A stretch of DNA of 45,794 nt from Gemmatimonadota bacterium (GTDB lineage: Bacteria > JBHIER01 > G020348925): NCBI GenBank assembly GCA_020348925.1, contig CP070758.1, positions 3,776,965 to 3,822,758 of the forward strand, written 5' to 3'. A program made the position numbers and the translations under genes. Shown one piece after another: positions 2,125 to 37,618 of this stretch (positions are counted from its first letter, which is position 1; every line of letters begins with the position of its first letter). Below the pieces are notes generated by a model. That model was not told the DNA's origin. It searched no databases and worked only from the letters and a program-made list of their open reading frames with translations.

Positions 2125-4530
2125 ATGATAAGCGGACGGCTCTTTGCTATGATAGCTATTTGTGTCATTATAATTCTCAGTACATCCGTGATGCTTCATG
2201 CAGAAAGCTTTTTAGACTATGCTGAAGGTGCGGCCGAATGGTTGATGAATGAGGCCAGAGTCGATGGAAACGGATACAAGTGGCCTGATGTCGCTGATGG
2301 TGGTTATCATTCTACAGACCTGTATTATGGTTCTCCTGGAATTGTCAAACTTTTCTCAAGGCTCTATGAGACAACCGGGAAGGAGCAATATCGCCATTAT
2401 GCAACAGGTGGTGCTCAATGGCTTATCGACGAAGCGGTGCCAGAGGGTGGTGGTTACAAATGGCCGATGATACAACGGCTCTCTTCGTATGGGATAGGAT
2501 TCTACACAGGAGTGACAGGGACTGGAGATGCCTTTGCCGATCTCTATGAGATCTTTTCGGATACACGGTATCTGAACCATGCCATGGGAGCGGCGGATTG
2601 GCTTTTACATGTGGCCGTCTTTGAAGGACCGGATATATGTAAATGGCCTTATACTCAAAACTCCGGATCGTATTATACTGACATAATTGGTGGTGTGGCA
2701 GGTGTTGGCCTCTTTTTATTGAGGATGTATGAGTTGGACGGAAACCAGAAATATCTGGAGTATGCAAGATACGGAGGTAATTGGCTGGTGAGTCAGGCTA
2801 TTCCTGACGGGAACGGATACAAGTGGAAAATGTCTACTGGTTCGCATAAGATCTTTACCGGCTTCTCACACGGTGCGGCAGGAATCGGGTATTTTTTAGC
2901 AGAGCTGTTCCGTGTTTCGGGTGACGATATTTATTTGGAATATGCGAAAGGTGCAGCCCAGTGGTTGATGGATGTAGCCATTGAAACAGAACATGAGTGT
3001 ACATGGTGGAGTGAAGAAAGCGAAAGGAGTGTGTTTTTTAGTACAGGATGGTGTCACGGTCCTGCCGGAACCTGCCTTATCTTTATGAAACTATATGCGA
3101 TTACGACCGAAGAGAGATACCTGGCATACGCCGAAAAAGGGGCGAACTGGTCGGTCAACGTTGCTATTCCTGATGGCGGTGGTTACAGGTGGCCATATAC
3201 GGTAGCGAGTGGCTTCTCCGATGTTACTTTTTGCCATGGGGTTACAGGAGTTGGGAAATTTCTTCTCGATTTTTACACTCTGACCCGTAATGAACACTGG
3301 CTGAAGTACGCCAAAGGGGCGGCATTCTGGCTTGGGAGTATTGCTGACACTTCTGCCGGTGGTTACCGCTGGGAAAGCTTTGATTTCTATAACACTGGAT
3401 ACTCCCTTGGCACAGCGGGAATAGGACTCTTTTTCCTGGACAATATGGAATACAACTGGCCCCCAATAATAAAACCAATAACAGAACAGGCGGACCAGTA
3501 TTACAACACCGCCCCGATACTCTCCACTTTCGGTTTCTACGATGACATGGGACTGGTTGATGGTTGGTATCAGATAGATTCGTATGAAGGCACATGGACA
3601 ATCCTCTTCTCCGATATCTCCGGGACGTCCTGGGACAAGGAAGATTGGTCCATCCCAGGATTTTCAGATCTTCCGGACGGCAGTCACACGATCTATTTCA
3701 AAGCCTCAGACGACTCAGGGGCTGTGGAGGGGGAGTCGGGTGAATGGAGCTGGCAGTTTTTCAAGGATACGACGCCACCGTCTGCTGGGACAATCTCCAT
3801 ACAGAACGGTGCGGATACAATCAACTCGCTGATGGTGAGCCTGGATGCCTTGACTGCATCCGATACATTGAGCGGTCTCTCTCAGATGCAATTCAGCAAC
3901 GACGGCAACAACTGGTCTTCACATGAAGAATATTCTCCAACGAGACCGGATTGGGACCTGTCGGCTTACGGCGGAAATCATTTCTCCGGAACGAAGAGAG
4001 TGTGCGTGAAATACAAAGACGTGGCCGGTAATTGGTCGGAGTCTTTTTCTGATGAAACAGTCTGTATTCTTCCTTTAGCTATAGTGACAGATTCACTGAC
4101 GAACGGTATCGTGGGAGTCCCGTACAATCAGACCCTCGAAGCGTGGGGCGGTTGGCATCCCTACCGCTGGAACCTGGAAGCCGGCTCTTTACCGCTGGGA
4201 CTCACTTTCGACACGACTGGTGTGATAGCAGGTGTACCGAATGCATCGGATACGATCTCTCTGACACTAAAGGTGACCGATTCAACCTCGGCCATATGTA
4301 CACAGGATCTCGAACTCACAATCACTGAGGGTTACAAAGGGGACATCAACGGTGACGGTCAGATCAACATTATTGACGTGGTTAGGCTCGTGAATTCCAT
4401 TCTCAACAACCGCGATCTCACACCCAACGAGCACTGGACTGCCGACTGCAATGGCGATGGGAGCGTGGACATTTTAGATGCTTTGGGTATTATCAATGTG
4501 ATACTGGGTGTGGGCGAGTGTGAACCATAA
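2125..4530 (+). CDS. Secreted LanC-like (alpha/alpha) toroid protein with Ig-like and dockerin domains
   Basis: 801 residues; the ATG follows an AAAGGAGGA ribosome site at 2111-2119. Residues 1-27 are a Sec signal peptide. Residues 30-440 hold seven repeats of about 60 residues, each starting like YAxGAAxWLxxxA and most followed by GxGYKWP, matching the seven-fold barrel of LanC lanthionine cyclases. GxxHG-type turns occur as SHGAAG (about 248), WCHGPAG (309) and FCHGVTG (369). C310 and C370-H371 correspond by eye to the LanC zinc ligands. Bacterial Ig-like domains follow (about 445-645), then a putative-Ig/cadherin-like module (655-740) and a C-terminal type I dockerin (742-801). There is no T9SS tail, unlike the preceding gene. 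Known LanC enzymes are cytoplasmic, so lanthionine chemistry is not claimed; a glycan-active or binding toroid is an alternative. Confidence 0.82.
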   Translation: MISGRLFAMIAICVIIILSTSVMLHAESFLDYAEGAAEWLMNEARVDGNGYKWPDVADGGYHSTDLYYGSPGIVKLFSRLYETTGKEQYRHYATGGAQWLIDEAVPEGGGYKWPMIQRLSSYGIGFYTGVTGTGDAFADLYEIFSDTRYLNHAMGAADWLLHVAVFEGPDICKWPYTQNSGSYYTDIIGGVAGVGLFLLRMYELDGNQKYLEYARYGGNWLVSQAIPDGNGYKWKMSTGSHKIFTGFSHGAAGIGYFLAELFRVSGDDIYLEYAKGAAQWLMDVAIETEHECTWWSEESERSVFFSTGWCHGPAGTCLIFMKLYAITTEERYLAYAEKGANWSVNVAIPDGGGYRWPYTVASGFSDVTFCHGVTGVGKFLLDFYTLTRNEHWLKYAKGAAFWLGSIADTSAGGYRWESFDFYNTGYSLGTAGIGLFFLDNMEYNWPPIIKPITEQADQYYNTAPILSTFGFYDDMGLVDGWYQIDSYEGTWTILFSDISGTSWDKEDWSIPGFSDLPDGSHTIYFKASDDSGAVEGESGEWSWQFFKDTTPPSAGTISIQNGADTINSLMVSLDALTASDTLSGLSQMQFSNDGNNWSSHEEYSPTRPDWDLSAYGGNHFSGTKRVCVKYKDVAGNWSESFSDETVCILPLAIVTDSLTNGIVGVPYNQTLEAWGGWHPYRWNLEAGSLPLGLTFDTTGVIAGVPNASDTISLTLKVTDSTSAICTQDLELTITEGYKGDINGDGQINIIDVVRLVNSILNNRDLTPNEHWTADCNGDGSVDILDALGIINVILGVGECEP

Positions 4531-29882: not shown

Positions 29883-31322
29883 ATGGCTCTCGAAAAAACC
29901 TTATCGCGGAGAAATTTTTTACGCTCGTCCGCTTCCGCAATGGGCCTTGTTTATCTCTCTGTCGTTGAACCGGAAATGTATGATCACACTCCTGGGGTAC
30001 ACGCTGTTGATTATCCAGGGCGTTTGTGTTACAATGAAAACCCTCTGGGCCCGTCACCGCAGGCACGGGCGGCGATGAGTAAAGCGGTTGCAATGGCACA
30101 TCGTTATCCTGACTGGTTTTGCTCAAATCTGGAAAGCCGCATCGCAGCTCATCATGGTCTTCAACAAAACAACATCTGTGTGGGCGCTGGCGCGACGGAA
30201 GTCATTCGCCTCATAGCGGATGCCTTTTTAGGGCCTGGCGATGAGATGATTACGGCCACCCCCACGTATTCCCAGATGGGTTACGATGCGACATCGAACG
30301 GCGCCAGCGTTGTTGAAATACCGGTCGATGAGAATTATGACATTGATCTCCAGGGTATTTTTGAGGCTATTGGGTCCAACACCAGGATGATATCCCTGGT
30401 GAATCCCAATAATCCTCTGGCAAGAGTTATCAATAAAACCGATATGGAGGCGTTCATCAGAGAGGTTCCCACAGGTATCGTGGTCGTGGTGGATGAAGCC
30501 TATCATCATTACGTTCACTCCCCCGATTACGAAAGTTGCATCCGTTTCGTGGACGAAGGACTGCCCGTTGTTGTGGTGAGAACGTTTTCCAAAGCCTTCG
30601 GACTGGCCGGAGCCCGCATCGGATATGCTGTGGCTTCCTCCGAATATACCCCTCTCATCGCTTCGACGCAATTGTTCGGAACGGTGAGCAACCTTGGCCA
30701 GGCCGCAGCCGAAGCGGCCCTGAATGACATGAATCATGTGAACAATACCGTAGCGATCAACGACGAGGTGAAGGGCTTTCTTGAAACCGAGTTCACCCAT
30801 TTGGGTTTGGATTTCATTCCCTCGGAAACAAATTTCATGATGATTGACGTTGGCACAGACGCCGAGACGGTGGTCTCCCAGCTTGCTTCCCGGGGTTTTC
30901 TGGTTCGCTCCGGCTGGGGAATGCGGCACCATATCCGAGTTTCAACCGGATTGATGCATGAGGCGGTGAGCTTCGTGGGAGCCTTAAAAGACGTCCTGGA
31001 TCTCGGGTTCCATTACGGTCTCAAAGGGAGTGGTGAAAGTCCGAAAACCTTCGGCTTGAATTCTGTCTATCCCAACCCGTTCAACTCACAATGTAAAATC
31101 AAAATTACGGCCCATCGGGATGAGAACGTGTCACTGACAATTTATGACACACTGGGGCGCAAGGTGCGATCGCTGGTCCATCATCCGCTCCGAGCCGGAG
31201 TACATTATATTCCCTGGGATGGGAAAAACGCTCACGGAAACAGTGTTGCCTCGGGAGTGTACATCATCAGTCTTATACAAGGCGAATGTGCCGAAAGTTC
31301 CAGAGTTACATTGATTCGATAA
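29883..31322 (+). CDS. Tat-exported HisC-like PLP aminotransferase with T9SS sorting domain
   Basis: 479 residues from ATG 29883 (AAAGGAGAGG at 29868-29877, five bases upstream); longer frames lack a ribosome site. A twin-arginine signal SRRNFLRSSASAMGLVYLS lies at the N-terminus. Residues about 45-375 are a fold-type I aminotransferase like histidinol-phosphate aminotransferase: YNENPLGPSP, GAGATEVIRLIADAFLGPGD, VNPNNPLARVI, VVVDEAYHHYV, and the PLP lysine K237 in TFSKAFGLAGARIGYA. About 90 residues at the C-terminus form a T9SS sorting domain (VYPNPFNSQ, IYDTLGRKVRSLV, SGVYIISL). Tat export would allow PLP loading before transport. An exported enzyme of this kind is unlikely to serve histidine synthesis; substrate unknown. 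No other his gene is nearby. Confidence 0.87.
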   Translation: MALEKTLSRRNFLRSSASAMGLVYLSVVEPEMYDHTPGVHAVDYPGRLCYNENPLGPSPQARAAMSKAVAMAHRYPDWFCSNLESRIAAHHGLQQNNICVGAGATEVIRLIADAFLGPGDEMITATPTYSQMGYDATSNGASVVEIPVDENYDIDLQGIFEAIGSNTRMISLVNPNNPLARVINKTDMEAFIREVPTGIVVVVDEAYHHYVHSPDYESCIRFVDEGLPVVVVRTFSKAFGLAGARIGYAVASSEYTPLIASTQLFGTVSNLGQAAAEAALNDMNHVNNTVAINDEVKGFLETEFTHLGLDFIPSETNFMMIDVGTDAETVVSQLASRGFLVRSGWGMRHHIRVSTGLMHEAVSFVGALKDVLDLGFHYGLKGSGESPKTFGLNSVYPNPFNSQCKIKITAHRDENVSLTIYDTLGRKVRSLVHHPLRAGVHYIPWDGKNAHGNSVASGVYIISLIQGECAESSRVTLIR

Positions 31323-31513
31323 AAATGGAAATCTTTCAAGAGGAAACGGGCCCTTCTTCGTCAGCGAGAGAGTGCGCTGGCAAAGATCCAACCGAGGATG
31401 ATTTCGAGAGAAACAAGAGGAAGGAAAATACGCATGGTCTCCATTGATTCGAAGCGAACAAACGTGAGGATGGGAAAAATGGAAGATACAAAATTATCGG
31501 AATACTGGGGAAT

Positions 31514-31972
31514 TTGGTGGTCGCCGATTTTCTGAATACGAAGCCGATCACGGTAACCTCAGATACTCCGATGGCCGAGATTGTCAAAATATTTCTGGAT
31601 CACAGCTTCGGAGGTATTCCTGTCGTTGACGACGGTCTCCTCCAGGGTATGGCCTTGAAAAGAGATCTTCTGGAGATCTATTTCATACCCCACCACGAGG
31701 TGGATGATACCGAAAAATTGCTGCGCTTGGTCTCGCTCATGGATCCTCTCAAACCGGTCAGCGAGTTTATGGAACCTGATCCTATTACAGTCACCCCGGG
31801 GTACAAAGCTTCTCAGTTGGCCCAGCTCATGCTCAAAGATGACACGTTTCTCTTTCCGGTCATTAAAAAGAAGGGGCTTCTCCCATTCACCGCCAAGAGG
31901 AAATTCCTCGGAATCGTTACCCCGACAGATATGCTGCCGCTCCTTTACGAAGCTATGGTCAGAGAGGATTAA
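31514..31972 (+). CDS. CBS-domain pair protein
   Basis: 152 residues with two CBS motifs (about 2-60 and 78-150): FLNTKPITVTSDTPMAEIVKIF, FGGIPVVDDG, then FMEPDPITVTPGYKASQLAQLM and FLGIVTPTDMLPLL. CBS pairs usually bind adenosine nucleotides and gate a linked enzyme or transporter. The gene lies seven bases before the antiporter gene, so it may be its regulatory subunit, as with other CBS-controlled ion transporters (inference). The start is TTG 31514 or GTG 31517, with GGGG at 31507-31510; there is no ATG in the frame, and a stop lies upstream at 31445. The start is therefore less certain than the rest. Confidence 0.75.
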   Translation: MVVADFLNTKPITVTSDTPMAEIVKIFLDHSFGGIPVVDDGLLQGMALKRDLLEIYFIPHHEVDDTEKLLRLVSLMDPLKPVSEFMEPDPITVTPGYKASQLAQLMLKDDTFLFPVIKKKGLLPFTAKRKFLGIVTPTDMLPLLYEAMVRED

Positions 31973-31979
31973 AAGCATT

Positions 31980-33195
31980 ATGGAAGAATCCGGTCTCCAT
32001 ATGGGAGAAATATTTTTGGCCATCACCCTGCTCTTGGTGCTGGCCAAACTGCTGGGGGAGGCGATGGAGCGACTGGGACAGCCCGCCATCTTGGCGAGCT
32101 GACCGCTGGCATCGTCCTGGGCTCTCATCTCCTGGGACCAGTCCTGTTTCACAAACCTTTATACGACATCGAGTCCATGGTCTTTCTCGGGGAAGTAGGG
32201 GCCATATTCCTGCTTTTTTCGGCCGGATATATGGAAGTCGACTTGAAGAGGCTCATCCGCATGGAAAAAGAGTCCCTCATCGTCGCCCTGCCCGGGGTCG
32301 CTGTGGCCTTCATGGCCGGTTTTCTTATCGGGAACTCATTTGGATACGGGTTCATTGGCAACCTTTTTCTCGGCTTGGCCTTGTCCATCACCAGCATCGG
32401 AGTGACGGTGCGAACGCTGATGGATCTGGGGAGATTACAGACCGATTACGGCATGATTATCCTGGGAACGGCCATTATCGATGACATCCTGAGCCTCTTT
32501 ATCCTGGCCATCCTCGTATCCATGGCTCAACCACACGCCACCCTGACGGCATTCGGAGTAGGTTTTATACTCCTCAAAGTTATTGCGTTTTTTGTCGGTT
32601 CGGCGCTCTTTGCCATTTTTTTACTCAGGCCTTTAGCCAGAATCACCAATAGATTTATTTTTGCTGAAAAGCGTTTGGGCATTATGCTCGGCGTCATCTT
32701 CTTTTTCTCACTTTTGGCCAAAGTTACGGGATTGCATATGATCATCGGTGCTTTCACTGCGGGAATGATTCTCGCTCTCCAACCCGATTTCAAGGCAAAG
32801 GACATCGAATACAAAGTGAACGGTTTGGCCTACGGCTTATTTATCCCTCTCTTTTTTGCTATACTGGGAACGAGGATCGACTTCGCTGCTTTAATGCAGG
32901 GCGGAAAACTGGCTCTGGGGATCATTCTTGTGGCCATCGCCGGCAAAATATTGGGGGGGTTATTGGTGGGAGAATAATTCGGTACACGTTGAAAAAATCT
33001 CTCGTCATCGGCATAGGCCTCATTCCCAAAACCGGCGTGGAGCTGGTCGTCATTTCGATAGCCCTAAGTGCCGGTATCATCGATCAAAAAGTCTTCACCG
33101 CCATTGTGGCCATGGTTGCTGTGACAGTGATTCTGACTCCCCTCCTGTTGAAGCAAGCCATTGGTCTCTTGGAGAGAGGAGCGGAGCTCTTTTGA
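31980..33195 (+). pseudogene. CPA2-type cation:proton antiporter interrupted by two frameshifts
   Basis: Read across two single-base losses, this is a full membrane antiporter of about 405 residues, similar to KefB/NapA-type sodium/proton exchangers. Segment 1 (31980-32102) ends LGQPAILAS; the family sequence GELTAGIVLG continues in the next frame, so one G is missing near 32092. Segment 2 (about 32093-32977) holds most transmembrane helices, including IILGTAIIDDILSLFIL with the paired aspartates typical of the ion site. Segment 3, after another missing G near 32963, reads GGRIIRYTLKKSLVIGIGLIPKTGVELV and ends at 33195. Both lesions lie in G-rich runs, so sequencing error is as likely as a real pseudogene. 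Everything else is well conserved. Confidence 0.82.
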
Positions 33196-33431
33196 GTCGA
33201 AGAGAGGCGTTCCTTTCCTACCCTCCCTGGGCTCTCACGGGGGCACAATTGAATTTCCCCGCATTGTTCTCAAAACTTCGGAGTCGTGTTGAGCTGATTC
33301 GTGAGAAGTGAAACCCTCATGAATTGACACGTGTCGAAATGATGTTGTTGCAGTGATGGACTACGAATCACGCGGAGTTCACTCAACGCCCGCGACAGTG
33401 CCCTTTTCGATTTCTCACCAAGGAGGTGGAC

Positions 33432-34124
33432 GTGACACAACAGATGAATGGAGAACAGCGGCTGGAATCTCCTCTTTCCCCCGGAGTTCTTTCTTGTTAC
33501 AGTCATGCATGGAATATCATGCGGGAAAAATTTCTTGAATTTTTCGTCATCACTGTGATTGCCATAGCCCTAACACTTCCAACTGCGGGATTGTCTCTCA
33601 AAGACGAAATTCCGCCGTTCTTTGCGATGCAACTTTTTAGTTTTTCCCTTCTGTACACACTCGTCCTCTTCTGGCCCCTTGAATATGGAATCGATTTCGC
33701 GTTCTTAAAGGGGGCCAGAGGTGAGGACGTAAAGGTCAATGACATTTTTGAAGTTTTTAAAAATTATCTGAATGCTGTCCTGGCACACTTCATCGTCGGG
33801 GCAATCATAGGGATCGGAATACTGTGTTGCTTTGTCCCGGGGATCGTTTTTGCTTGCAAGTTGGCCTTTGTTCCCTATTTGGTCGTTGATAGGAAAATGG
33901 ATGTGATCAACGCTCTCAAGGAGAGCTGGAGACTTACGACCGGACATTCGATGACCGTATTTCTTATCGGGCTCGTGTCGGTTCCCATATTTATCGCGGG
34001 ATTGATGATTTGTTTCGTCGGAGTCATCATCTCCGCCATGTGGGTCGAACTGGCCTTTGCATCTCTGTATTGGTCAGTTGCCCGCTCGGCGGAGCCCGGA
34101 TATGCAAACAATCGAAAAGTATAA
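33432..34124 (+). CDS. Multi-pass membrane protein, YciC/DUF975-like
   Basis: About 230 residues. AAGGAGGTG at 33421-33429 puts the likely start at GTG 33432; an earlier GTG (33426) lies inside the ribosome site, and ATG 33444 is the alternative. A soluble N-terminus of about 25 residues (SCYSHAWNIMREKFLEF) precedes about six hydrophobic segments: VITVIAIALTLPTAG, FFAMQLFSFSLLYTLVLFWPL, AVLAHFIVGAIIGIGILCCFV, VFACKLAFVPYLVV, VFLIGLVSVPIFIAGLMICF and the last near 210. The ALKESWRLTTGHSMTVFLIGL element is typical of YciC/DUF975-like membrane proteins, whose function is unknown. The next gene starts 11 bases later, so the two are probably co-translated. Confidence 0.75.
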   Translation: MTQQMNGEQRLESPLSPGVLSCYSHAWNIMREKFLEFFVITVIAIALTLPTAGLSLKDEIPPFFAMQLFSFSLLYTLVLFWPLEYGIDFAFLKGARGEDVKVNDIFEVFKNYLNAVLAHFIVGAIIGIGILCCFVPGIVFACKLAFVPYLVVDRKMDVINALKESWRLTTGHSMTVFLIGLVSVPIFIAGLMICFVGVIISAMWVELAFASLYWSVARSAEPGYANNRKV

Positions 34125-34135
34125 AGGGGAAGATA

Positions 34136-34471
34136 ATGACCGCATGGATCATGGTTGCCGTGGCCGGTGGATCTCTTTTTCTATCAGGTATGGTTCTCGT
34201 AGCGCTTCGATATCGGCGAGGCGATTTCAATCGATTCGAATTTCTCGTCCTCATGATAAGTGGTCTCGCTGTGGTCCCAATCGCCGTTTTCGGCGGGCTT
34301 TATGGAGAACCAGTGGTGGACTGGGCAGGATTTCTTTATTGCGTATGGTTGGGATTGATGACTGTTATGAGCTGCCGTCGTCGCAAGCGGATACACCACC
34401 ACAGCAATGAATGCCCCGGAAGAGAGAACCTCTCTCCCGAAAACCGCTCCCCTGAAGGCGCAGGTATGTGA
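34136..34471 (+). CDS. Small three-helix membrane protein of unknown function
   Basis: 111 residues from ATG 34136, with AAGGGGAAG (34125-34133) just upstream and only 11 bases after the preceding stop. Three hydrophobic segments are clear: IMVAVAGGSLFLSGMVLVAL (about 5-24), FEFLVLMISGLAVVPIAVFG (about 34-55) and WAGFLYCVWLGLMTVMSC (about 63-80). The end is basic and hydrophilic (CRRRKRIHHH). I recognise no family. Spacing suggests it is a partner of the membrane protein before it. Confidence 0.6.
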   Translation: MTAWIMVAVAGGSLFLSGMVLVALRYRRGDFNRFEFLVLMISGLAVVPIAVFGGLYGEPVVDWAGFLYCVWLGLMTVMSCRRRKRIHHHSNECPGRENLSPENRSPEGAGM

Positions 34472-34635
34472 AGAGCAGAGACACGAGCCGATATGTGAGT
34501 GCCTGGCAAGGGATCACTACGCCCGAAGTGATTTTTCCCCTGTAAGTGCATCTTTTTGCACGTTACCACGTCGACAGATATTCCCGCGGATATTCGGTAA
34601 GATGATTATTTATTTGCACGTTAAGGGAGAAAACT

Positions 34636-34734
34636 GTGGCGAGACACTCCCGTGCATTCCTGGGCACAGTTTTTGCGATACATTTCTGCGCGGCAGGTAT
34701 TATGAGACATGGCGCTCTAAGGCTCTGTGGCTAA
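34636..34734 (+). CDS. Possible 32-residue peptide upstream of the DUF362 gene
   Basis: A GTG at 34636 has AAGGGAG (34623-34629) upstream and opens a 32-codon frame ending at TAA 34732. The product is basic and hydrophobic (starting VARHSRAFLGTVFAIHFCAAG). It could be a leader or micropeptide, or chance. The surrounding gap (34472-34765) shows nothing else. Confidence 0.22.
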   Translation: MARHSRAFLGTVFAIHFCAAGIMRHGALRLCG

Positions 34735-34765
34735 TGGCTCAACAATATCCGAATACGAAGAGACA

Positions 34766-36100
34766 ATGTACCCCATGAAACACGTGAATAAAGGCGATCG
34801 TTTAACCATCTCCACCCGCAGAGAATTTCTCAGGCAAGTGGTGACGGTTGGGGCTTGGTCTTTCTTTGGCGTGAAGGGGATTCCCAAAATTGTGGGAGCC
34901 AACCCGCTGGTGTATCCTCCCCGTGCTCGAATACCGAATCCATACGTTTCTGACGAAGGGAAGCCGCTCCTTGTCACGGTTCTTGGGACTGATATTCGAC
35001 AGATGCTGAGGGCTGGATTCGAGCGACTGGGTGGTCTTCACAAACTGATCAATGACAACCAGGACGTTCTCATCAAACCGAATCTCAATGGGGTCGATAT
35101 CTATCCAGCTATTTCCAGTGCGGAGGCCATTGCAGCACTGGCTCAAGAAGTGGCGGAACGTACGACGGGAACCGTGAGGGTTGGGGACACGGGATTTCAT
35201 TCGAGAGATGATGTGTACGCCCATATCGATCTCGAGGGCGCACTCACAGGAACAGGAGCCGAGGCAGCCTATTTTACTGACACCTATAATGTCCGGAGGT
35301 CGTCGTGGAGCGATTCCAAACCGGACTATTTGGTGTACACCGATGTCTACGACGCACCGATCATAGTCAACTTTGCCTGCATGAAACGCCATTATCTGGC
35401 TCACATGAGTATGGCTCTGAAAAATAATGTGGGAGCTGTGGCCGGCTCGGACGCGACGGAATCACGAGCATATCTTCATGGGCTCAGTGGCAATTCCTTT
35501 TTGGAGGAGGTCGCCGAAGTAGCCGGCCTTATTAATCCGGAATTGACCGTTGTCGACGCGCGGAGCGTCCTGGTCGGCAACGGTCCTTTTTCCGATATGC
35601 CTGACGCTCAGATCCTCCACGGCTTGAATTTTCTGATCATAAGTGGCGATATGATGGCTGTTGATCTTTACTGTTCCGTTCTTCTCCAAGGATATGATCG
35701 CGATTTTTCGTCGTCCCAAATCATGCCCACCCTGAATCGGGCTCATGAATTGGGCTTAGGAGTGAGAGAATTGAGCGACGTCGAATTTGCGGAGACATAC
35801 ACGTGTGTCGAGAATCTTGAGGACGGAACCATGCCTCTTCAGTTCGAACTGCATCAAAATCATCCCAATCCCTTTAATAGCTCAACACAAATTTGTTTCA
35901 GAATCCATGACAAAAATTCCGTTGCTCTTTACATCTATGATGCTCTGGGAAGAAAAATCTCAACGGTAATGAACCGCGAAATGGCCCCTGGTCAGTATTC
36001 GGTGGAATTTCACGGGAACAGCGTGCCGAGCGGCCTCTATTTTTATCAATTGAGAGTTGGGCCGCATCTCCTGACGAAAAAGATGACGCTGCTCAGATAA
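34766..36100 (+). CDS. Tat-exported DUF362 protein with T9SS sorting domain (copy 1)
   Basis: About 444 residues; ATG 34766 or 34775 are both possible. The N-terminus has a twin-arginine motif STRREFLRQVV followed by a hydrophobic stretch. The body matches DUF362: KPLLVTVLGTDIRQML, QDVLIKPNLNG, AISSAEAIAALAQEVAE, RVGDTGFHSRDD, CMKRHYLAHMSMALKNNVGAVAG, LTVVDARSVLVGNGPF. About 85 C-terminal residues are a T9SS sorting domain (HPNPFNSS, IYDALGRKISTV, SGLYFYQLRVG, ending KKMTLLR). DUF362 proteins have no settled function; some carry iron-sulfur domains, which are absent here. The Tat signal suggests folding, perhaps with a cofactor, before export. The next gene is a paralogue. Confidence 0.85.
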   Translation: MYPMKHVNKGDRLTISTRREFLRQVVTVGAWSFFGVKGIPKIVGANPLVYPPRARIPNPYVSDEGKPLLVTVLGTDIRQMLRAGFERLGGLHKLINDNQDVLIKPNLNGVDIYPAISSAEAIAALAQEVAERTTGTVRVGDTGFHSRDDVYAHIDLEGALTGTGAEAAYFTDTYNVRRSSWSDSKPDYLVYTDVYDAPIIVNFACMKRHYLAHMSMALKNNVGAVAGSDATESRAYLHGLSGNSFLEEVAEVAGLINPELTVVDARSVLVGNGPFSDMPDAQILHGLNFLIISGDMMAVDLYCSVLLQGYDRDFSSSQIMPTLNRAHELGLGVRELSDVEFAETYTCVENLEDGTMPLQFELHQNHPNPFNSSTQICFRIHDKNSVALYIYDALGRKISTVMNREMAPGQYSVEFHGNSVPSGLYFYQLRVGPHLLTKKMTLLR

Positions 36101-36259
36101 TTCCACCCGCGCGGTTTTCGCCGAAAAAAGTCAGACGCGGAGCTTTAAACCCCCGAGCCCTGAAACATATCCTCCGCAGGTGTGGTCACATGGTAGTATC
36201 ATAAGCCTGAAAATTCGGGGCACCCATACAGCACGTTCAGAAGATCGGAGGGGTTCCAC

Positions 36260-37618
36260 ATGTGTCGCCGTGAAGAGAAAAGTCAAAGCAGACAGACACA
36301 TCCGCGAAGAACGTTTCTGAAAAAAATAGCCTCACTGGGGATGCTGTCTCTGTTGGGGAGAGATATACTTCCCAGACGAGCGAACGCAGGTGTGACGGCC
36401 TTTCCGCCGCGAAAAAGAATTCCGAATCCGTACGTTTCCAGTGAGGGCAAGCCGATTCTGGTGTGTGTCTCGGGTACGGATTTCGGAGAGATGTTGCGGA
36501 CAGGACTGGAGCGGATCGGCGGACTTGAAAAACTGATCGACAGCAATCAGGATGTCCTCATCAAACCGAATCTGAACGCCTCGGATGTGTACCCCGCCAT
36601 TTCCAGCGCGGAGTCCATTGCTGCCTTAGCTCGGGAAATTGGAGGCGTAACGAGTGGGAGTGTCAAGGTGGGCGATGTCGGGTTTCATTCGGCCAGTCGG
36701 GTTTACAATCACATCAATTTGGAGAAGACATTGAGCGGTACGGGAGCCGAGGCCGTCTATTTCTCAGAGACGTACGATGTTCGCCGAGCCCCATTTATCA
36801 AAACATTAGCCAGTAAATCGTTATGGAATCCTTCGAAACCGAATATTTCGGTCTATTCCGATGCGTATGATGCCCCGATCATCATCAGTCTCACCTCCAT
36901 CAAACGCCATTTTCTGGCCCACATGAGCACGGCGCTCAAGAACAATGTGGGCGCTGTGGCCGGATCGGGCGCGAGTAGGTCACGGGAGTACCTTCACAGT
37001 CTCCGCGATAAGTCTTTTTTAAGAGAAGTTGCGGAAATTGCTCGGGTTATCCAACCGGAGTTGACTGTGGTCGATGCTCGAAGCGTACTCATCGGCAACG
37101 GTCCGTTTTCCGACTATCCTGGGGCGGAAATTCTCGACGGCATTCATCTGCTCATCATGAGCGGTGATATGATTGCTGTTGATCTCTATTGTTCCCTTCT
37201 TCTTCAAGGCTATGACGATACGTTTTCATCGTGGCAGATCAACTATACGGTCCAACATGCACATGCCCTGGGTGTCGGCGTGGGGAGTTTGGACGAAGTT
37301 GAGATTATTGAACCTGTCGCGTCAGTTGAAAGTTCACCTGGTTCATCCGTGCCGGGCGGGTTTGAATTGTATCAGAATTATCCCAATCCCTTTAACGCTT
37401 CAACTCACATCGGATTCCGTATTGAGGAAAAGAGGAATATCACGCTGCACGTTTATGATTCACTGGGACGAAGAGTTTCGACTCTTGTGAAAAGGGAGAT
37501 GTCGCCTGGTGAGTATTCATTCACATTTGACGGGAACGGATTACCGAGCGGCACCTATTTTTATCAACTCAAAGTGGGTCGAAGTCTTGTAACGAAGAAG
37601 ATGATGTTGCTGAAGTGA
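36260..37618 (+). CDS. Tat-exported DUF362 protein with T9SS sorting domain (copy 2)
   Basis: 452 residues from ATG 36260, with GGAGGGG (36247-36253) six bases upstream. Signal: HPRRTFLKKIASLGMLSLLG, a twin-arginine motif. DUF362 body as in the preceding gene: RIPNPYVSSEGKPILVCVSG, QDVLIKPNLNASDVYPAISS, KVGDVGFHSASRVY, SIKRHFLAHMSTALKNNVGA, LTVVDARSVLIGNGPFSDY. T9SS tail: YPNPFNAST, VYDSLGRRVSTLV, SGTYFYQLKVG, ending KKMMLLK. An insertion of about ten residues (KTLASKSLWN) after YDVRRAPFI distinguishes it from copy 1. The two are clearly tandem duplicates that have diverged, separated by 159 bases without a gene. Function unknown. Confidence 0.86.
   Translation: MCRREEKSQSRQTHPRRTFLKKIASLGMLSLLGRDILPRRANAGVTAFPPRKRIPNPYVSSEGKPILVCVSGTDFGEMLRTGLERIGGLEKLIDSNQDVLIKPNLNASDVYPAISSAESIAALAREIGGVTSGSVKVGDVGFHSASRVYNHINLEKTLSGTGAEAVYFSETYDVRRAPFIKTLASKSLWNPSKPNISVYSDAYDAPIIISLTSIKRHFLAHMSTALKNNVGAVAGSGASRSREYLHSLRDKSFLREVAEIARVIQPELTVVDARSVLIGNGPFSDYPGAEILDGIHLLIMSGDMIAVDLYCSLLLQGYDDTFSSWQINYTVQHAHALGVGVGSLDEVEIIEPVASVESSPGSSVPGGFELYQNYPNPFNASTHIGFRIEEKRNITLHVYDSLGRRVSTLVKREMSPGEYSFTFDGNGLPSGTYFYQLKVGRSLVTKKMMLLK

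Follow-up and report, generated by a model that had tools for sequence, protein, structure and literature searches.

Type A cargo of the type IX secretion system (T9SS), such as gingipains, RemZ, and mirolase, ends in a beta-sandwich tail with the pattern PNPF...GR...SGxY...LLK. Reviews state that all T9SS effectors have signals for the general secretory (Sec) pathway (PMC10202324), a pathway that an earlier note on this DNA had also given for known T9SS cargo, and that the twin-arginine translocation (Tat) pathway feeds the type II secretion system (T2SS) only (PMC5449463). A 2024 review lets transport by T2SS, the type V secretion system, and T9SS start in general terms with either Sec or Tat, and its passages on this point name no Tat-exported T9SS cargo (PMC10925705); no report of such cargo was found in the open-access literature. 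The window analysed here is a stretch of 45,794 nucleotides (G000:C1:3776965-3822758) from a Gemmatimonadota genome of 5.04 Mb, a single scaffold with N runs. It contains three genes, for one aminotransferase and two DUF362 proteins, each of which has a Tat signal at the N-terminus and a T9SS type A tail at the C-terminus. The tails resemble those of described type A cargo in sequence pattern and fold, and the genome has SprA and PorU. In contrast to that cargo, which has Sec signals (PMC10202324, PMC5449463), the three proteins have Tat-type signals. The predicted route is also similar to that of Tat-then-T2SS cargo, as both have two steps in which Tat hands a folded protein to a second, outer-membrane machine. 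However, the second step here would be T9SS with an autonomous C-terminal tail and not the T2SS secretin. The features of the three genes, in window coordinates, are as follows.

29883..31322, + strand: HisC/CobD-like pyridoxal phosphate (PLP) aminotransferase of 479 aa; Tat signal at the N-terminus, T9SS type A tail at the C-terminus (Aminotran_1_2 173 bits; Foldseek match to HisC structures, E 4e-30)
29904..29921, + strand: Tat motif S-R-R-N-F-L, residues 8-13 (SRRxF invariant in 9/9 aligned orthologues)
31056..31319, + strand: T9SS type A sorting domain, about residues 392-479, YPNPFNS...VTLIR (Por_Secre_tail 29.9 bits; beta-strands of the model at 391-477)
34775..36100, + strand: DUF362 protein of 441 aa; Tat signal at the N-terminus, T9SS type A tail at the C-terminus (DUF362 95 bits)
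34814..34834, + strand: Tat motif T-R-R-E-F-L-R, residues 14-20
35858..36097, + strand: T9SS type A sorting domain, HPNPFN...KKMTLLR (TIGR04183 27.5 bits, Por_Secre_tail 27.6 bits)
36260..37618, + strand: DUF362 protein of 452 aa, tandem paralogue of the preceding one; Tat signal at the N-terminus, T9SS type A tail at the C-terminus (AlphaFold2 mean pLDDT 81)
36302..36322, + strand: Tat motif P-R-R-T-F-L-K, residues 15-21, with the predicted end of the c-region at RRANA|G
36902..36940, + strand: K-x-H...K motif, residues 215, 217, and 227, aligned with the LarA-type His and Lys (invariant in 17 sequences)
37373..37615, + strand: T9SS type A sorting domain, YPNPFN...KKMMLLK (TIGR04183 38.5 bits; six beta-strands, residues 381-450)

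The three genes are free of N runs and their frames are uninterrupted. Their N-termini are MALEKTLSRRNFLRSSAS for the aminotransferase, MKHVNKGDRLTISTRREFLRQVV for the first DUF362 protein, and MCRREEKSQSRQTHPRRTFLKKIA for the second, and a Shine-Dalgarno-like site precedes two of the three starts, with none at 34775. The Por_Secre_tail (PF18962) scores of 29.9, 27.6, and 37.6 bits, in the same order, are all above the curated cut-off of 27, and both DUF362 proteins also pass TIGR04183, for which the cut-off is 23 bits. The tails carry YPNPFN in the aminotransferase and the second DUF362 protein and HPNPFN in the first. The presence of both signals on all three genes, claimed in the earlier note, is thus borne out by the Tat motifs SRRNFL, TRREFLR, and PRRTFLK and by tails that exceed the family cut-off.

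The preferred reading, with a probability of about 0.74, is that folded cofactor enzymes would be exported by Tat and then released or displayed at the surface via T9SS, two folded-protein translocases acting in series. The enzyme would be made in the cytoplasm and fold there with its cofactor bound, PLP in the case of the aminotransferase and possibly a bound nucleotide of the LarA type in the case of DUF362. The twin-arginine signal would direct it to the Tat translocase and be cleaved by signal peptidase. In the periplasm, the already folded C-terminal beta-sandwich would be recognized by T9SS through a putative PorV shuttle and the SprA channel, and PorU would remove the tail, leaving the enzyme released or anchored outside. 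Cofactor insertion in the cytoplasm may be the reason for Tat export. Transport of folded proteins is a known ability of T9SS (PMC9251779), so the second step would ask nothing new of it, and the novelty lies in the first. It is also probable, at a somewhat lower level of confidence, that the relay is conserved in several phyla outside Bacteroidota, where enzymes from two or more unrelated families would cross both membranes folded and with their cofactors in place; T9SS cargo would then extend to enzymes with cofactors made only inside the cell.

The N-termini of the three proteins are Tat-like and not Sec-like, both by motif and by the hydrophobicity of the central h-region. Tat signals differ from Sec signals by an arginine pair and a less hydrophobic core (PMC7317946). 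Tat substrates are marked by S/T-RR-x-F-L-K in the n-region, a weak h-region, and an A-x-A site; in agreement, the three proteins have S/T/P-RR-x-F-L and weak h-regions, and the protein encoded at 36260 has an A-N-A site. Mean h-region hydrophobicity is 2.43 in 83 Sec-type T9SS cargoes from this genome and 1.40 in the Tat set (p = 2e-11, Mann-Whitney), and the three window genes have values of 1.15, 1.42, and 1.41. For the aminotransferase, the Pfam TAT_signal score is below threshold (14.6 versus 22.7 bits).

The co-occurrence of the two signals was counted in 1.97 Mb of the genome, a portion that spans all 150 scored TIGR04183 hits, with a locally built tail model. A terminal T9SS tail is present in 199 reading frames, 40 of which have N runs within the N-terminal 120 residues. 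Among the tailed frames with a readable N-terminus (199 minus the 40 masked), a credible Tat signal is confined to the three window genes. RRx[FLIVM] occurs within the first 25 residues in 1 of the 123 Sec-type cargoes with a readable signal. Other tailed proteins with RR matches, for example those at 469766, 2183512, 2720665, 3124831, and 4026637, were rejected, as translation probably starts downstream of the RR and a normal Sec signal follows. When the residues of Sec signal peptides are shuffled, about 0.65 RRxF motifs are expected per 199 proteins. The count of three is therefore not taken as statistical proof, since two of the genes are duplicates and chance alone gives 0.65. About 20 tailed frames in 60 kb sampled from the Zixibacteria-phylum genome G044 include none of the Tat type.

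Both export systems are encoded in the window's own genome. TatC is present with a score of 245.8 bits, and a TatA-like reading frame of 78 aa at G000:C1:4091129 was found by pattern and identified by eye, with no model behind the assignment. SprA is a 2000-aa frame scoring 708 bits, with its neighbours in the frame, and PorU scores 737 bits against a curated cut-off of 420. The genome has at least 150 TIGR04183 hits. With about 200 T9SS tails it also has 14 C25-peptidase hits, and dockerin-like repeats stand at the C-terminus of several C25 proteins.

No other genome of its phylum is in the set compared, and the assigned relatives share only the domain with it. The two signals were followed in other phyla, the DUF362 clade being drawn from a scan of 84,980 species genomes and 133 genomes of the Zixibacteria phylum. 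DUF362 proteins with Tat signal and tail are present in candidate division LCP-89 (L195) and in G158, G159, G167, and G169, the last with a tandem pair; these four genomes belong to the Zixibacteria phylum. Aminotransferases with both signals occur in five genomes of the same phylum (G044, G159 with two copies, G169, G163, and G164). The remaining HisC-like proteins examined in that phylum have neither signal. RRxF is invariant across every intact close homologue examined in both families, while most other positions of the signal peptide drift, and the tailed orthologues keep the full PNPF...GR...SGxYFYxL...LLK pattern. SprA is present in all nine genomes with Tat-plus-tail proteins, the window's genome included.

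Relatives without the tail keep the Tat motif equally. Among DUF362 proteins, those of Aminicenantes (L194), of the Zixibacteria genomes G044 and G162, and of G024 are Tat lipoprotein-like and without tail; that of G067 has a Tat signal and no tail, and that of the Zixibacteria genome G041 (L193) has a Tat signal with dockerin-like repeats in place of the T9SS tail. The Aminicenantes homologue of the aminotransferase likewise has a Tat signal and no tail. Two genomes without SprA, Aminicenantes G042 and G024, have Tat homologues that lack the tail. An aminotransferase of G162 (L307) was rejected as a further case of Tat signal with dockerin, as its tail lies past an N run and the join is uncertain.

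The aminotransferase is modelled by AlphaFold2 as a HisC-like enzyme with a separate beta-sandwich tail, and its best solved relatives are HisC proteins. SRRxF is kept in all 9 aligned orthologues, whose identity ranges from 33 to 61%, with the motif reading SRRGFVG in the L303 row. The Schiff-base lysine that would hold PLP, Lys237, is invariant among the orthologues, as are the fold type I motifs N174-P178 (NPNNP) and D204-Y207 (DEAY). Candidate Tat-type HisC-like aminotransferases of Bacteroidota (the region of NCBIfam NF006580/PRK09105) are alike in their PLP fold and in the alignment of the Tat region. In contrast, they have no room for a tail: in 396 Bacteroidota genomes, the matches listed include 24 aminotransferases in which the match reaches the Tat region, and their open frames of 369-421 aa are too short for one, against 491-514 aa in the Zixibacteria forms with both signals.

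The tail of the window aminotransferase is 58% identical to that of its G169 orthologue, the closest tail known, whereas identity to the nearest of the remaining tails in its own genome is about 42% or less. In the tree, the window and G169 aminotransferases are sisters (support 99/96), and a single group of Tat-type aminotransferases is separated from the cytosolic HisC rows (97/98). Because the tail is closest to that of the orthologue and not to the tails of its own genome, and because of the sister placement, Tat signal, enzyme, and tail are taken to have been inherited together. In G169, the aminotransferase gene with both signals (L365:3964-6162) adjoins DUF1611 and enolase-superfamily (dipeptide epimerase-like) genes, and in G159 (L363) a membrane dipeptidase (M19) lies two genes away. 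A link to dipeptide or D-amino-acid metabolism is possible.

Sequence identity between the two DUF362 proteins is 60%. For the second, AlphaFold2 predicts a LarA-like body and, as a separate domain, a six-strand beta-sandwich tail, which Foldseek matches to the mirolase T9SS tail 8qb1 and to chain 8gl8_D of the T9SS translocon complex with RemZ. The best matches of the body are malate and lactate racemases of the LarA type (7s91), with E 1.9e-6. A weak local alignment of hidden Markov models (E 1.1) pairs the invariant H217 and K227 with H171 and K181 in malate racemase Mar2. In LarA, the cofactor lysine K184 follows the catalytic residue His174 at the same His-x9-Lys spacing. LarA is a cytoplasmic, nickel-pincer enzyme, and we know of no activity for DUF362. 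Although DUF362 and LarA (DUF2088) are placed in one Pfam clan, CL0471 (PMC11770544), the likeness is one of fold; the sequence match to LarA/DUF2088 is not significant (E 1.1), and assignment of DUF362 to the LarA superfamily was rejected. Elsewhere in the genome, a more distant DUF362 protein (G000:C1:3685800; L115:2691-5060, minus strand) has a Sec-type signal, thrombospondin type 3-like and dockerin-like repeats, and a T9SS tail.

Several points weigh against a Tat-fed T9SS route. Tat use in vivo, cofactor loading before export, secretion through SprA, and surface location are predicted steps. A Tat signal can also be taken up by Sec if its passenger permits (PMC7317946). The distant DUF362 protein keeps the His/Lys spacing yet has a Sec-type signal together with a T9SS tail, so the DUF362 fold alone would not demand Tat. 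The SprA genomes G041, G067, G162, and G044 have DUF362 homologues without T9SS tail, and hence T9SS permits the tail without forcing it, the tail being dispensable to the enzyme. Moreover, related HisC enzymes act as dimers, and the passage of a dimeric HisC-like enzyme through SprA is uncertain.

The likeliest of the alternatives, though its probability is low, is that the proteins are exported by Tat and then stay periplasmic or bound to the envelope, the tail being an inherited beta-sandwich that T9SS ignores because the cargo is folded and possibly dimeric. Close homologues without tail (L194, L196, L334, L335, and L174), some of them Tat lipoprotein-like, favour such a location, as do the short aminotransferases of Bacteroidota in which the match includes the Tat region. 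However, the tailed orthologues keep the full tail pattern, tails occur solely in SprA genomes, the tail fold matches that of genuine T9SS cargo, and folded cargo of T9SS is known (PMC9251779).

It is unlikely that the three genes form an operon for a dedicated surface pathway in which the aminotransferase and DUF362 enzymes act together. They are on one strand within 8 kb, and one gene placed once at random would fall within 3.5 kb of the DUF362 pair with a chance of about 0.0014. Against this, about 3.4 kb of unrelated genes (for a CBS domain protein, an Na+/H+ exchanger, and a membrane protein) separate the aminotransferase from the pair, and in G044, G159, and G169 the two families are far apart or on separate contigs, so a joint pathway gains no support from other genomes. 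The cluster described in the earlier note is thus real here, within 8 kb, and is not kept in these genomes. Its argument that three cases in 8 kb speak against chance is weaker than put there; because the DUF362 pair is such a duplication, the cluster reads as two independent cases and not three. Conservation of the signals in relatives is strong evidence for their pairing, whereas proximity and count are weak evidence.

That Sec uses these N-termini, the RR pair being incidental and the proteins ordinary T9SS cargo, is improbable. The ability of many Tat signals to send Sec-compatible passengers to Sec (PMC7317946) and the DUF362 protein with Sec signal and T9SS tail in the same genome are in its favour. 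In contrast, RRxF is invariant in divergent homologues of both families and recurs on those without tail, the h-regions are weakly hydrophobic, and RR is found in only 1 of 123 Sec-type cargoes here. Chance or an assembly artefact, with RR arising at random or unrelated genes being joined into chimeras, is hardly credible, even though the N runs of the scaffold and the expectation of about 0.65 motifs might point to it: the three genes are read through without N runs, and nine independent assemblies, counting the window's genome, show this architecture.

Passage through Tat and then T9SS would contradict the rule given in reviews that T9SS cargo always reaches the periplasm unfolded via Sec. 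If it is true, surface enzymes of these bacteria could carry cofactors loaded in the cytoplasm, and the proteins would offer a clean test of whether cargo that has at no time been unfolded in the periplasm can pass the SprA channel. It would also suggest a way of using T9SS hosts to display enzymes that need cofactors. With the conserved pairs of Tat signal and tail, the question of a Tat-fed T9SS is directly testable.

Two further features of the window stand apart from the three genes. The Na+/H+ exchanger-like gene (PF00999; window 32177-33311) looks split, with a frame at 32177-32977 that stops and an overlapping frame that continues to 33311, and a frameshift or an assembly error is possible. 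At 2125-4530, an 801-aa protein combines LanC-like and Ig-like domains with a dockerin at the C-terminus, and the combination of LanC-like barrel and dockerin is unusual.

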